Shown here piece after piece: positions 45,729 to 56,080 of a stretch of 64,000 bases of DNA. The first letter of the stretch is position 1, and every line of letters begins with the position of its first letter. The stretch is from Aliidiomarina sp. (lineage in GTDB: Bacteria > Pseudomonadota > Gammaproteobacteria > Enterobacterales > Alteromonadaceae). The stretch lies in NCBI RefSeq assembly GCF_022565475.1, contig NZ_JAIUMR010000003.1, forward strand, positions 1 to 64,000, read 5' to 3'. Position numbers and translations under genes: made by a program. The notes under the pieces are model-generated. The model had not been told where the DNA came from. It did not search any database and worked only from the letters and a program-made list of their open reading frames with translations.

Positions 45729-46817
45729 ATGCAAATTAATCAGTTGGTCATTGCGCATTTTCGAAATATTACCAATGCCCAGCTTGAGCCCAGTCGCCAT
45801 GTGAATATTATATATGGTGAAAATGGTAGCGGTAAGACTAGTGTTCTCGAAGCGATCTATAGCTTAGGCTTTGGTCGCTCGTTTCGAACGCATCAAGTGC
45901 GACAAGTCGTGCAAGATGAAAATGAAGCCCTGACTTTGTTCACTCGCGTTCGAGATGCAGAAGATGGAGAAATTCAGAAAGTAGGTTTTCGGCGCTATCG
46001 TAACGGCGAAACTGAAATTCGTATGAATGGCGAGTCGGAAAAGCGCTTTAGTTTATTAGCAAAGCTCATGCCGATTCAACTGATTACGCCGGAAGGCGTA
46101 ACCTTGGTCACGGATGGTCCGAAAGAGCGTCGCCAATACATGGACTGGGGTTTGTTCCATGTGGAACAAAGTTATTATCCACAGTGGTTAACGTTTTCTC
46201 GACTGTTGAAACAAAGAAACAGTTTGTTGAAGCAACGCAGTTACCATCAACAAGGTGGCGCGTACTGGGATCAACAGTTGGCAACAGCAGGGGAAGCAGT
46301 CACCAACGCGCGTGCTGCCTATTTAACCGGGCTAAACCAACAGTTAAATAAGTATTGCCAGCAATTTTTACCGCAATACGAATTCGAATTTCGTTTGTTG
46401 CAAGGATGGCAAGAGCAACAGACATTGAGCGAGGCGTTAGCTGCCAAGCTCGAATTGGATTTGCGCCAAGGTTTCACCAGCGTGGGGCCGACCAAAGCGG
46501 AATGGCAAATCCGTGTAGATGGTGTCGACGCTCGCGAACGGCTGTCCCGTGGACAGCTAAAGCTCTTAGTTGCGGCGTTACGGTTAGTACAAAGTGCTGA
46601 CTACGCCGAACGTTTAGGCAAACGGTGTGTCATTTTAGTTGACGACTTACCCGCTGAGCTAGACGCAGAGAATCAACAGAGACTTTGCAACGCATTGTTG
46701 GAAAGTGGAAGTCAGGTGTTTATCACTGCGATTCGCAAAGAAGAATTACAACATCGCTTTGAGAATGCCGAAGTTCGATTGTTCCACGTGGAACAAGGAA
46801 CAATCAAAAATGATTAA
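45729..46817 (+). CDS. recF: Recombination mediator RecF, with two internal parS-like sites
   Basis: A 362-aa SMC-like ATPase. Walker A is [17 protein letters not shown], the signature motif is [15 protein letters not shown], and Walker B is [14 protein letters not shown]. It loads RecA with RecO and RecR at gaps. The gene contains two 16-bp parS-like palindromes, each of which encodes FHVEQ in the same reading frame (codons about 142-147 and about 350-356). The second lies in the last residues, where RecF is not conserved. Confidence 0.97.
46153..46168. other. parS: parS-like ParB-binding site 1 (inside recF)
   Basis: TGTTCCATGTGGAACA is one base off the perfect palindrome TGTTCCACGTGGAACA, the parS type known from Pseudomonas. 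In RecF it encodes part of DWGLFHVEQ, a naturally conserved segment. Confidence 0.85.
46781..46796. other. parS: parS-like ParB-binding site 2 (3' end of recF)
   Basis: A perfect TGTTCCACGTGGAACA. It lies 21 nt before the recF stop codon and 34 nt before the gyrB start. Confidence 0.93.
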
Positions 46818-46830
46818 ACAGGAAGAAACT

Positions 46831-49248
46831 ATGTCTGCTAGTAATTACGATCAGTCGAGTATTAAGGTGTTGAAAGGTCTGGACGCAGTGCGTAAACGTC
46901 CAGGAATGTACATTGGTGATACCGACGACGGTACAGGTTTGCACCATATGGTGTTTGAGGTGGTCGATAACTCTATCGATGAGGCACTGGCAGGCCACTG
47001 TAACGAGATTTACGTCACGGTCCACTCCGACGGTTCCGTCTCTGTTCGCGATGATGGTCGCGGTATTCCGGTTGAAATGCATGCCGAAGAGGGCGTGTCT
47101 GCAGCACAGGTCATTATGACCGTACTTCACGCTGGTGGTAAGTTTGACGACAACTCTTACAAAGTATCCGGTGGTTTGCACGGTGTTGGTGTTTCTGTTG
47201 TGAACGCTTTGTCAGCAAAGTTGGCATTGACAATTCATCGTGAAGGCAAAATTTGGAAACAGACTTACACCCACGGTAACCCAGACGGCGATATTCAAGC
47301 GGTCGGTGACACCAGCAAGTCAGGCACCGAAATTCGTTTTTGGCCAAGCCACGAAACGTTCACGCAAACAGAATTTCATTACGACATCCTTGCCAAACGG
47401 GTACGCGAACTCTCATTTTTGAATTCAGGCGTTTCAATTCATTTGATTGACGAGCGCGCTGATCGTCGTGATCACTTCAAATATGATGGTGGTATTGCCG
47501 CCTTTGTTCAGTATTTGAATGACAAGAAAACCCCGATTCACCCAAAAGTTTTCCAATTTAGTGTTGAGCGCGATGACGGCATTTCAGTTGAAGTCGGCTT
47601 GCAATGGAACGACTCGTTTCAAGAGCATATCTATTGCTTTACCAATACCATTCCACAGCGCGACGGTGGAACCCATATGGCAGGTTTCCGTGCGGCACTG
47701 ACACGGACTTTGAATAACTATATGGAGCAGGAAGGTTACACCAAAAAGGCGAAAACCAACGCCAGCGGTGATGATGCCCGTGAGGGTCTCACAGCCGTTA
47801 TTTCGGTGAAAGTTCCTGATCCAAAGTTCTCTTCGCAAACGAAAGACAAGTTAGTGTCGTCCGAAGTGAAAAGTGCGGTCGAGCAAGCCATGGGTGAGAA
47901 CCTAGCCAATTTCTTGTTAGAAAACCCGACCGATGCGAAAGTGATCGTACAAAAGATTATTGACGCTGCACGCGCTCGTGAAGCTGCACGTAAAGCGCGG
48001 GAAATGACGCGTCGGAAAGGCGCCTTGGATTTGGCCGGCTTGCCGGGCAAGCTCGCAGATTGCCAAGAAAAAGACCCAGCACTTTCTGAACTCTATATTG
48101 TGGAGGGTGACTCTGCGGGTGGTTCTGCGAAACAGGGCCGTAACCGCAAAAACCAAGCCATTTTGCCATTGAAAGGTAAAATCCTGAACGTTGAGAAAGC
48201 ACGTTTTGACAAAATGCTGTCGTCGCAGGAAGTTGCAACGTTAATTACAGCAATGGGCTGTGGTATCGGCCGTGACGAATACAACCCAGACAAGACGCGC
48301 TATCATCGCATCATTATTATGACCGATGCTGACGTCGACGGCTCGCACATACGTACTTTGTTATTGACCTTCTTCTACCGGCAAATGCCAGAGTTAATTG
48401 AGCGTGGTTATATCTATATCGCGCAACCGCCGCTGTATAAAGTGAAAAAAGGTAAGCAAGAAAACTATATCAAAGACGATCCAGGCCTGATTCAATATCT
48501 CACGTCGTTGGCGCTTGACCGTGCCTCTTTGCACGTCAATGCCGATGCCCCGGGCATTACCGGTGTGGCGTTAGAGAAAATGGTACGCGACTATCAATTT
48601 GCACTGGATACCATTGCGCGGTTAAGCCGTCGATTACCGAAACATGTGCTGAACCGTCTCGTTTACGCTGAGCGCTTAACCGCTGAGAATATGAAAGACG
48701 AACAGTACGTGACGGCGTGGGCAGAGAAATTCTGCGCGGATATGATGGCCACGGAAAAAGACTCAGCAACCTACGAAGTCTTGGTCACCAACGATGAAGA
48801 TCGCGGTGTGTTCTTACCGATGATTCGTTTGCGTCGTCATGGTGTATTCACCGACTTCCCACTAACCTATGAGTTTCTCGTCTCACGCGACTATGACCGC
48901 TTAGCGTCTGTCGGCTCGGAGATTAACGGTCTAGTGGAAGACGGTGGCTATGTCCAGCGTGGTGAGAAAGTGCAACCGGTTGACGATTTCGTTGAAGCCA
49001 TTGAGTGGTTGATTAGCGAATCGAAGCGCGGTTTATATATTCAGCGCTACAAAGGTCTAGGCGAGATGAACCCGGATCAATTGTGGGAAACGACGATGGA
49101 CCCAGAAACTCGCCGGATGTTGCAAGTCACTATCGAAGACGCGATTGGTGCTGACCAATTGTTTACGACCTTGATGGGTGATCATGTTGAGCCTCGTCGT
49201 GCATTTATTGAAAGTAATGCGTTGAAAGTGGCGAACTTGGACGTCTAG
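46831..49248 (+). CDS. gyrB: DNA gyrase subunit B
   Basis: An 805-aa type II topoisomerase ATPase subunit. The start is ATG 46831 (AGGAAG upstream; [30 protein letters not shown]). The GHKL site ([34 protein letters not shown]) and the TOPRIM acidic residues ([22 protein letters not shown]) are intact; EQ-type C-terminal [13 protein letters not shown] is canonical. It supercoils DNA with GyrA (not in this window). A parS site lies 34 nt upstream. Confidence 0.98.
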
Positions 49249-49282
49249 GACGCGATGTAAATAGCGCTAAACCATAAAGTAG

Positions 49283-49315
49283 AAACCCCGCAACGAACGT
49301 TAGCGGGGTTTTTTT
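49283..49315 (+). terminator. Terminator of dnaA-dnaN-recF-gyrB
   Basis: AACCCCGC and GCGGGGTT with an 11-nt loop, followed by a run of seven T. It lies 35 nt after the gyrB stop codon and overlaps the 3' end of the next, convergent gene. Confidence 0.92.
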
Positions 49316-49587
49316 CTATTCGGTGCTTGGGGTGTCTTTAATACCATATGACGAACGATGAGCGCCGTCATAATGCCGGTCAGTCCGAGGAAGGTGATGA
49401 GTACAGTCAGCAACCCGGCGAAATCGAGGCTAGGATCAAAATACCAGCGCAGACTTGCAACCAAGGTCACTAACAGCACGGGCGCTGCTATGCACAGCAC
49501 ATAGCTGAGCCACTTGCGGGTTTTTGCTGCGACATTACCGATCCAAATACAGAAAAAAATAACGGCTAAATACACTAAAAAGGCCAT
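49300..49587 (-). CDS. Small membrane protein of unknown function
   Basis: A 95-aa protein from the ATG at 49587, where GGAGAAG gives a good ribosome site (an in-frame start 36 nt earlier does not). Three hydrophobic helices (about 2-20, 25-45, 55-80) are followed by a basic C-terminal tail. I do not recognise it. The 3' end runs into the gyrB terminator. It lies just downstream of glyS and may be cotranscribed with it. Confidence 0.55.
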   Translation of the reverse strand: MAFLVYLAVIFFCIWIGNVAAKTRKWLSYVLCIAAPVLLVTLVASLRWYFDPSLDFAGLLTVLITFLGLTGIMTALIVRHMVLKTPQAPNRKKPR

Positions 49588-55385: not shown

Positions 55386-55388
55386 AAG

Positions 55389-55400
55389 CAAGGATCCTTG
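55389..55400. promoter_or_regulatory. Palindrome at the start of the XRE regulator gene
   Basis: CAAGGATCCTTG is a perfect 12-bp palindrome that ends 4 nt upstream of the start codon and overlaps the ribosome site. It may be an autoregulatory operator. Confidence 0.4.
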
Positions 55401-55512
55401 TAGGTCTTATAGTATGTTATTCTTTGGGCAAGCTAAAGCTGCGGTGTTTCCCTTATTATTCTTGGGAAGTCGGGCAGAGATAACCAGATGAAAATAGGGG
55501 AATATTCAGGAA

Positions 55513-55992
55513 ATGTTGCGAATTTTACCGGTGGATTATCAAAATCCTGAGCATGCTGATGCATTGCTTAAACTTTTAAATCATTATGCTCAAGATCCAA
55601 TGGGTGGCGGCGAAGCACTCAGTGACGACACCAAAGCGAACTTGATTGCTGAAATGGCGAAACGACCAACGGTATTCAGCTTTATCGCGTGGGACGACGA
55701 CGGCGCTGTCGGGTTAATCAATTGTGTTGAAGGTTTCTCGACGTTTGCAGCAAAGCCGATTTGTAACCTGCATGATATTGCAGTACTCGATGGCCACCGC
55801 GGTAAAGGTATTGGCCAACAGCTGATCGCTGCTGCCGCAGAGGAAGCGACAAAACGTGGCTGCGTGAAACTCACGTTGGAAGTGCTTAGTGGCAATGAAC
55901 CGGCACGTCTTGCCTATTTGAAGTATGGGTTTAAGCCTTATCAGCTTGATCCAGAAATGGGTGCCGCGGAGTTTTGGGAATATAAATTGTAA
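55513..55992 (+). CDS. GNAT-family N-acetyltransferase
   Basis: A 159-aa acetyltransferase. The acetyl-CoA loop is LHDIAVLDGHRGKGIGQQLIAAAAEEA (R/Q-x2-G-x-G/A), followed by VKLTLEVLSGNEPARLAYLKYGFKPYQLD. The substrate is unknown. It is transcribed alone, divergent from the XRE gene. Confidence 0.9.
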   Translation: MLRILPVDYQNPEHADALLKLLNHYAQDPMGGGEALSDDTKANLIAEMAKRPTVFSFIAWDDDGAVGLINCVEGFSTFAAKPICNLHDIAVLDGHRGKGIGQQLIAAAAEEATKRGCVKLTLEVLSGNEPARLAYLKYGFKPYQLDPEMGAAEFWEYKL

Positions 55993-56064
55993 GACTGACT
56001 AAAGATAGCGCGACAACGACTGACAGGCGCGCTTGGCGAATCGGTATACCAGCGAGCATCCTCT

Positions 56065-56080
56065 TGTTCCACGTGGAACA
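56065..56080. other. parS: parS-like ParB-binding site 4
   Basis: A perfect TGTTCCACGTGGAACA in the 105-bp gap between the GNAT gene and tusA, which are convergent. Confidence 0.93.

Follow-up and report, generated by a model that had tools for sequence, protein, structure and literature searches.

The first 64,000 nucleotides of contig NZ_JAIUMR010000003.1 of Aliidiomarina sp. (assembly GCF_022565475.1, positions 1 to 64,000, forward strand), a stretch which we call the window, carry a group of palindromes of the parS type, the candidate chromosomal centromere of this bacterium, together with the genes of a ParA and a ParB protein. The 16-base pattern of these palindromes, TGTTYCACGTGRAACA, is that of parS in Pseudomonas aeruginosa, a comparison drawn for Pseudomonas in an earlier note made on the letters of the window (hereafter the sequence-only reading). 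Scanned with up to three mismatches, the window holds exactly four matches, which are listed here with the two genes nearest to the first pair:

46153 to 46168, no strand assigned: parS site 1, TGTTCCATGTGGAACA, one mismatch, in recF, its FHVE being RecF residues 143 to 146 approximately
46780 to 46795, no strand assigned: parS site 2, TGTTCCACGTGGAACA, no mismatch, at the 3' end of recF, its FHVE being residues 352 to 355 approximately
54586 to 54601, no strand assigned: parS site 3, GGTTCCATGTGGAACA, two mismatches, between convergent alpha/beta hydrolase-like and helix-turn-helix (HTH) genes
56065 to 56080, no strand assigned: parS site 4, TGTTCCACGTGGAACA, no mismatch, between convergent GNAT and fadA genes
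45729 to 46817, plus strand: recF (TIGR00611, 355.9 bits), which carries sites 1 and 2
46825 to 49248, plus strand: gyrB, start approximate (NF011501, 1325.6 bits, match from residue 41 of the open reading frame (ORF)); site 2 lies about 30 bp upstream

These sites and genes are seen directly. The sequence-only reading had reported four such palindromes, two of them perfect, and our scan agrees on both points (the perfect ones are those at 46780 and 56065); its starts at 46153, 54586 and 56065 were exact, while the remaining one, given as 46781, was one base too far. It had also proposed a scan of the genome at up to two mismatches: in the whole assembly (2,727,483 bases in 23 contigs, 95.6% complete) this returned the same four sites, all within 10 kb, and no fifth. 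At three mismatches six more appear; each is either on another contig or, where it shares the contig of the window, at a distance of about 130 kb. The reversed pattern, used as a control, has seven matches at up to three mismatches. These six sites are at background level, which is the argument that can be made for chance or base composition as the origin of the cluster. A first-order Markov model with the composition of the window (128 Mb simulated) gives an expectation of 1.1 sites with at most two mismatches per genome and of 0.004 per 9.93 kb. Hence four sites in 9.93 kb are far beyond chance. In dinucleotide shuffles the mean was 0.31 sites per window at up to three mismatches, and four were reached in 1 of 100. 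As two of the copies are moreover perfect and the sites are kept across families, we consider an origin by chance or composition practically inconceivable.

Two of the four sites sit in codons of recF, which the sequence-only reading had missed and which is the most informative feature of the cluster. Sites 1 and 2 share one reading frame, nTG TTC CAC GTG GAA CAn, so that FHVE is encoded twice; site 1 of the window has CAT in place of CAC. Of the genus 17 genomes were examined, that of the window included; both recF sites are present in every one, and they are separated in each by 627 or 630 bases, that is by whole codons. The end of site 2 lies 30-39 bp ahead of the gyrB match in 17/17 of them, and the distance from parB to recF, obtained by subtraction in the 16 of 17 genomes which have both on one contig, goes from about 17 to 48 kb. 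Within recF there is also a perfect DnaA box, TTATCCACA, at 46175 to 46183, starting 7 bases beyond the end of site 1.

We then looked at the homologous codons over the class Gammaproteobacteria, by aligning the RecF proteins of 165 genomes (the one of the window among them) and of Escherichia coli K-12, and by scoring the pattern NGTTYCAYRTGRAACN at the positions of the two sites. From this survey 23 of 132 class genomes were left out as they had no recF match, G113, G130 and G138 were dropped for fragmentary or very weak recF hits and G175 for want of a locus sequence, while G082, with a weak ParB hit only, was set aside and is labelled ParB-positive in the RecF tree only. G118, in which the contig ends within recF ahead of site 2, was counted as being without site 2; G182 was counted as ParB-negative, its two ParB-like hits being weak (1.9e-10 at best). 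The Enterobacteriaceae and Pasteurellaceae are described as having no par genes (PMC3909081), and the ParB-negative status of E. coli comes from this source and not from a search. Outside the genus 119 genomes are ParB-positive; 101 of them have site 1, 99 have site 2, 88 have the two together and 112 have at least one. Among the 29 ParB-negative genomes, site 1 is found in none and site 2 in one. A plain count of up to two mismatches gives a similar picture (96/119 and 97/119 against 0/29 and 2/29). We also counted 43 extra genomes without ParB status: at least one match within recF is present in 17 of the 19 further members of the class, and none of the 24 genomes from other classes of the phylum has any. 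The number of state changes by parsimony on the whole RecF tree, ParB-negative clades included, is 16 for site 1 and 20 for site 2.

A few genomes have recF palindromes of another kind. By eye, the two recF sites share one variant in G059 (CACATG centre) and likewise in G121 (CATATG centre), and in G066 the two sites are related variants with TAGAACA, which hints that these variants may have co-evolved with the ParB of their own genome. In G164 (locus L150) recF has lost its second site, and just past the gene, some 1.1 kb beyond the beginning of its reading frame, stands a parS which has 7 extra paired bases and is followed by TTTTGTTT; it resembles a terminator hairpin.

A second line of evidence, independent of the comparison between ParB-positive and ParB-negative genomes, comes from the codons themselves. 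It bears on a rival reading, in which the recF palindromes are a mere by-product, following from conservation of the peptide FHVE in RecF, and do not act as parS. We counted the codons at the 201 sites outside the genus, in ParB-positive genomes, which encode FHVE or FHVK: CAC stands for His at 197 of them and GTG for Val at 198, GAA for Glu at 163 of 163 and AAA for Lys at 38 of 38, while the shares of these codons (CAC, GTG, GAA, AAA) in the rest of recF are 0.40, 0.34, 0.52 and 0.66. The triplet CAC-GTG-RAA occurs at 195 of the 201 sites, against 21.1 expected from the codon use of each genome's recF. The Phe codon is free (103 TTC, 98 TTT), and its third base is precisely the position which varies among the forms of parS. 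We also ranked 63 RecF columns, those with one residue in more than 75% of the genomes, Trp and Met being left out, by the share of their commonest single codon: the top five are all parS columns (0.95-0.98), the next value is 0.76 and the median 0.36. This freeze is observed as such; judged by synonymous codons, the recF motif is frozen beyond what the protein needs, and we rejected a constraint on the protein only.

The palindrome also appears to influence the choice between Glu and Lys at the fourth residue of the motif. Where Lys replaces Glu at site 1, the Phe codon is TTT, its symmetric partner, every time (18 of 18), and at site 2 it is TTT in 18 of 23; since Lys goes with its TTT partner, the symmetry of the DNA appears to shape an amino acid. 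GC content alone does not account for this. Over the classes compared, mean GC content at third codon positions (GC3) at site 1 does drop from 0.57 to 0.41, and so contributes, but the link stays after adjustment for GC3 (p = 1e-6 at site 1 and 0.007 at site 2, kinship being uncorrected).

ParB-negative genomes give what can be said in favour of the by-product: in 27 of these 29 the Phe-His of site 1 is kept, and the Val of site 2 is often kept too. In these 27, however, the His of site 1 is written CAT 17 times and CAC 10 times, far from the proportion in ParB-positive genomes, and the Val of site 1 is absent from 29/29, the Glu staying in E. coli and G030. The near invariance of the motif codons while other conserved RecF columns vary, the switch of the fourth residue along with the palindrome and the lack of the palindrome in the 24 RecF from outside the class all speak against it as well. 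We therefore regard a by-product of the peptide as extremely improbable.

The proteins which would use the sites, the origin and the beginning of the operon of recF lie upstream in the window:

20386 to 21267, minus strand: parB, with ParB_N, HTH_ParB and ParB_C domains (TIGR00180, 199.7 bits; best PDB match Caulobacter ParB, 6t1f)
21280 to 22059, minus strand: parA, an AAA_31/ParA-type ATPase with the Walker A motif KGGVGKT in its translation
24778 to 25384, no strand assigned: oriC region between mnmG and mioC, placed from DnaA boxes, a GATC cluster, the skew minimum and the flanking genes
43161 to 44561, plus strand: dnaA (TIGR00362, 606.8 bits), GTG start likely, the listed ORF beginning with TTG at 43125
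44598 to 45698, plus strand: dnaN (TIGR00663, 383 bits)

Six DnaA boxes with zero or one mismatch lie at 25127-25359, the 500-base bin starting at 25000 has 15 GATC against a mean of 1.7 per bin in the window, and the cumulative GC skew reaches its minimum within the window near 24 kb. The gap between rpmH and dnaA, tried as another origin, was rejected as it has one DnaA box only. On these signs oriC is predicted to be E. coli-like, between mnmG and mioC, and the sites therefore lie 21-31 kb away from it, as the sequence-only reading had said; it was also right that parAB has none of the four nearby and that they all lie to the same side of oriC. Chromosome I of Vibrio cholerae is similar in this respect: its oriC, E. 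coli-like, is at gidA-mioC, with parAB close to gid and parS some tens of kb off.

Profile and domain searches bear out that genes of both ParA and ParB are in the window, the ParB being full-length. The ParB aligns with Caulobacter ParB 6t1f (E 5e-53), carries the motifs GERRWRA and ENIQR and has an Arg and a Gly aligned with Caulobacter R173 and G201. At the four positions which decide between parS and Noc specificity it has Arg, Leu, Gln and Gly; the first and the fourth are of the parS type and the two others of neither, and the Spo0J of Thermus shares the Gln at the third. Among the 80 named relatives listed, the closest are from Aliidiomarina (78%), so that the organism probably belongs to the Idiomarina group. 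A Noc protein with its NBS sites would be a related system, and the Noc model does match this ParB at 220.5 bits. This score is nevertheless under the Noc cut-off of 315, for which reason we rejected a Noc identity; the palindrome is that of parS, and the Arg and Gly positions are of the parS type rather than the Noc type. The Spo0J/parS system of Bacillus subtilis has a palindrome one symmetric change apart, a Spo0J-type ParB and the loading of SMC; its gene surroundings differ from those of the window. The gene of a full SMC is present in the genome.

The four palindromes are thus, very probably, the parS cluster of a ParABS system and the centromere of the chromosome, as the sequence-only reading had proposed. 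The sequence of the sites, their clustering near the origin (every site with at most two mismatches lies there) and their absence elsewhere point to this, and so do a parA ATPase gene adjoining parB, a predicted Spo0J-type ParB with intact CTP-binding motifs and an HTH domain, and two sites kept at homologous codons with no match in 28 of 29 ParB-negative genomes. From established ParABS biology we infer how the cluster would work: dimers of ParB would load on each of the four parS, spread over the nearby DNA and recruit SMC, and ParA would move the ParB-parS complex, by which the new origin region would be segregated. The bases in recF would be read twice, as the residues FHVE and as parS, and selection on parS would hold the synonymous codons and even decide some residues of RecF. 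Embedding in recF would tie the centromere to the dnaA operon.

As far as these alignments tell, this double use of the same bases is kept across much of the Gammaproteobacteria. We think it probable that the centromere of the class is an ancient dual-coding element, with two in-frame parS in recF, in which the specificity of ParB dictates part of RecF and locks the centromere to dnaA-gyrB when oriC moves, and that lineages which lose ParB free RecF to drift. This would be a clean example of a DNA-binding site constraining a protein sequence over a bacterial class; it would account for RecF residues which are dispensable in relatives without ParB, and it gives a testable rule, that parS is anchored to a gene and not to a distance from oriC.

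Several observations weigh against the reading of the four palindromes as the centromere. Seven of the 119 ParB-positive genomes match neither recF position (G023, G026, G037, G066, G080, G086 and G097), although G066 has the other palindromes mentioned above; the ParB-negative draft G151 keeps site 2, and G030, also ParB-negative, keeps a form with one mismatch. The absence of ParB corresponds to about three events on the RecF tree, one large clade plus G150 and G151, so that the association between sites and ParB rests on few events, and Fisher values overstate independence, as most of the 29 genomes are one clade. For the Glu/Lys effect, the GC3 control handles composition and leaves kinship uncorrected. 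As for the window itself, site 3 has its two mismatches at the first base and at the centre, and its gene pair is adjacent in G004 and G006, neither of which has a site there.

It could also be supposed that the recF pair is mainly regulatory: ParB would spread over dnaA-dnaN-recF-gyrB and tune this operon, any parS being able to serve segregation, and segregation would be coupled to initiation and supercoiling. The short distance from site 2 to gyrB in the genus agrees with this, as does the fact that the pair stays in recF while the spacing from parB changes. In P. aeruginosa most genes of the interval PA0003-PA0015, gyrB included, are expressed less when ParB is in excess (PMC5521831), and in Caulobacter an unexplained hot spot of parS insertion spans recF-gyrB (PMC5815017), a result on which the anchoring of parS to a gene bears as well. 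On the other side, the same papers report that when parB or parS was null in P. aeruginosa the rise was confined to PA0010-PA0015 and did not extend to the neighbours of parS1 and parS2, and that transcription of gyrB in Caulobacter was unchanged by parS insertion. A mainly regulatory pair seems to us unlikely; the link to the operon may additionally serve the regulation of gyrB or dnaA. Most likely, the centromere is anchored to the dnaA-dnaN-recF-gyrB operon rather than held at a fixed distance from oriC.

The nearest described case is P. aeruginosa, which has ten parS; segregation seems to be served by the four proximal to oriC alone. Of these, parS1 and parS2 are in recF, parS3 and parS4 are intergenic, beyond tag (PMC5521831, PMC3909081). 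As here, four sites are origin-proximal, two inside recF and two intergenic. The differences are that the distance from oriC to the recF pair is about 4 kb there (PMC3909081) and 21 kb here, that sites 3 and 4 of the window both stand between the 3' ends of convergent genes, and that the window's genome has no further site at up to two mismatches. While the location in recF is taken from the papers for P. aeruginosa, it is our survey which places both sites at homologous codons in 88 of 119 ParB-positive genomes. A location of parS in recF is thus already in print; among the papers listed in one open library, judged by title or the beginning of the abstract and not extending to Livny 2007 and Yamaichi 2007, we found no earlier account of the class-wide conservation of the parS codons, of the codon lock or of the effect on an amino acid.

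The intergenic sites behave differently from the recF pair. The slot of site 4, between GNAT and fadA, is also occupied in G001, G002, G004 and G006, and the interval between hydrolase and GNAT holds a site in G012 and G015, where no HTH gene was detected. Other congeners have sites after gyrB (G008, G012, G015, G016), after tag (G002, G004, G006) or after a transglycosylase gene (G012, G015), and in eight the site is about 330 bases beyond the latter gene; the stretch of G016 ends before the region of site 3. Compared over the genus, the intergenic sites thus seem to be movable, shifting from one congener to another, while the recF pair would be old and fixed. In one of the eight congeners with a site past the transglycosylase gene, at about 18.1 kb of locus L164, this site is coding too, the third of its kind to be read in that frame (MFHVEL), and lies in a gene which we take from its sequence to be prolidase-like; seven other congeners have a site in that slot.

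In stretches from ParB-positive genomes, the palindrome is prolonged by at least four extra paired bases at 9 of 43 sites outside recF (about 0.2 expected) and at 8 of 229 inside (about 0.9 expected). Site 3 of the window, added to this count by hand because of its two mismatches, has 8 extra paired bases, the longest extension jointly with one recF site, and stands inside a 32-base near-palindrome (54578-54609). Its RNA fold is strong (-19.9 kcal/mol, z -3.1), that of site 4 not unusual (z -1.5). We did not adopt a role of site 3 as an intrinsic terminator, since no run of T follows it.

Finally, profile searches give the following gene order along the window, starting from parB: parA, rsmG, mnmG, mioC (its match slightly under the cut-off of the model), a region of SulP and Usp genes, genes for an SstT-like transporter and a patatin-like protein, an arsenic cluster, mnmE, yidC, dnaA, dnaN, recF, gyrB, glyS, glyQ, tag, the hydrolase, HTH and GNAT genes, fadA and fadB. 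By order and length alone, the genes at 13.6-19.8 kb resemble the atp operon. The arsenic cluster (32580-37339), between oriC and dnaA, comprises GAPDH, ArsJ, a DUF2959 protein, ACR3 and a protein of 247 residues, one half of which is arsenate-reductase-like (under the cut-off) and the other ArsR. The Rfam family AsdA, an antisense RNA of dnaA, matches 43668-43748 on the minus strand and scores 56.2 bits where the gathering score is 52, a match which may reflect only the similarity of dnaA coding sequences.

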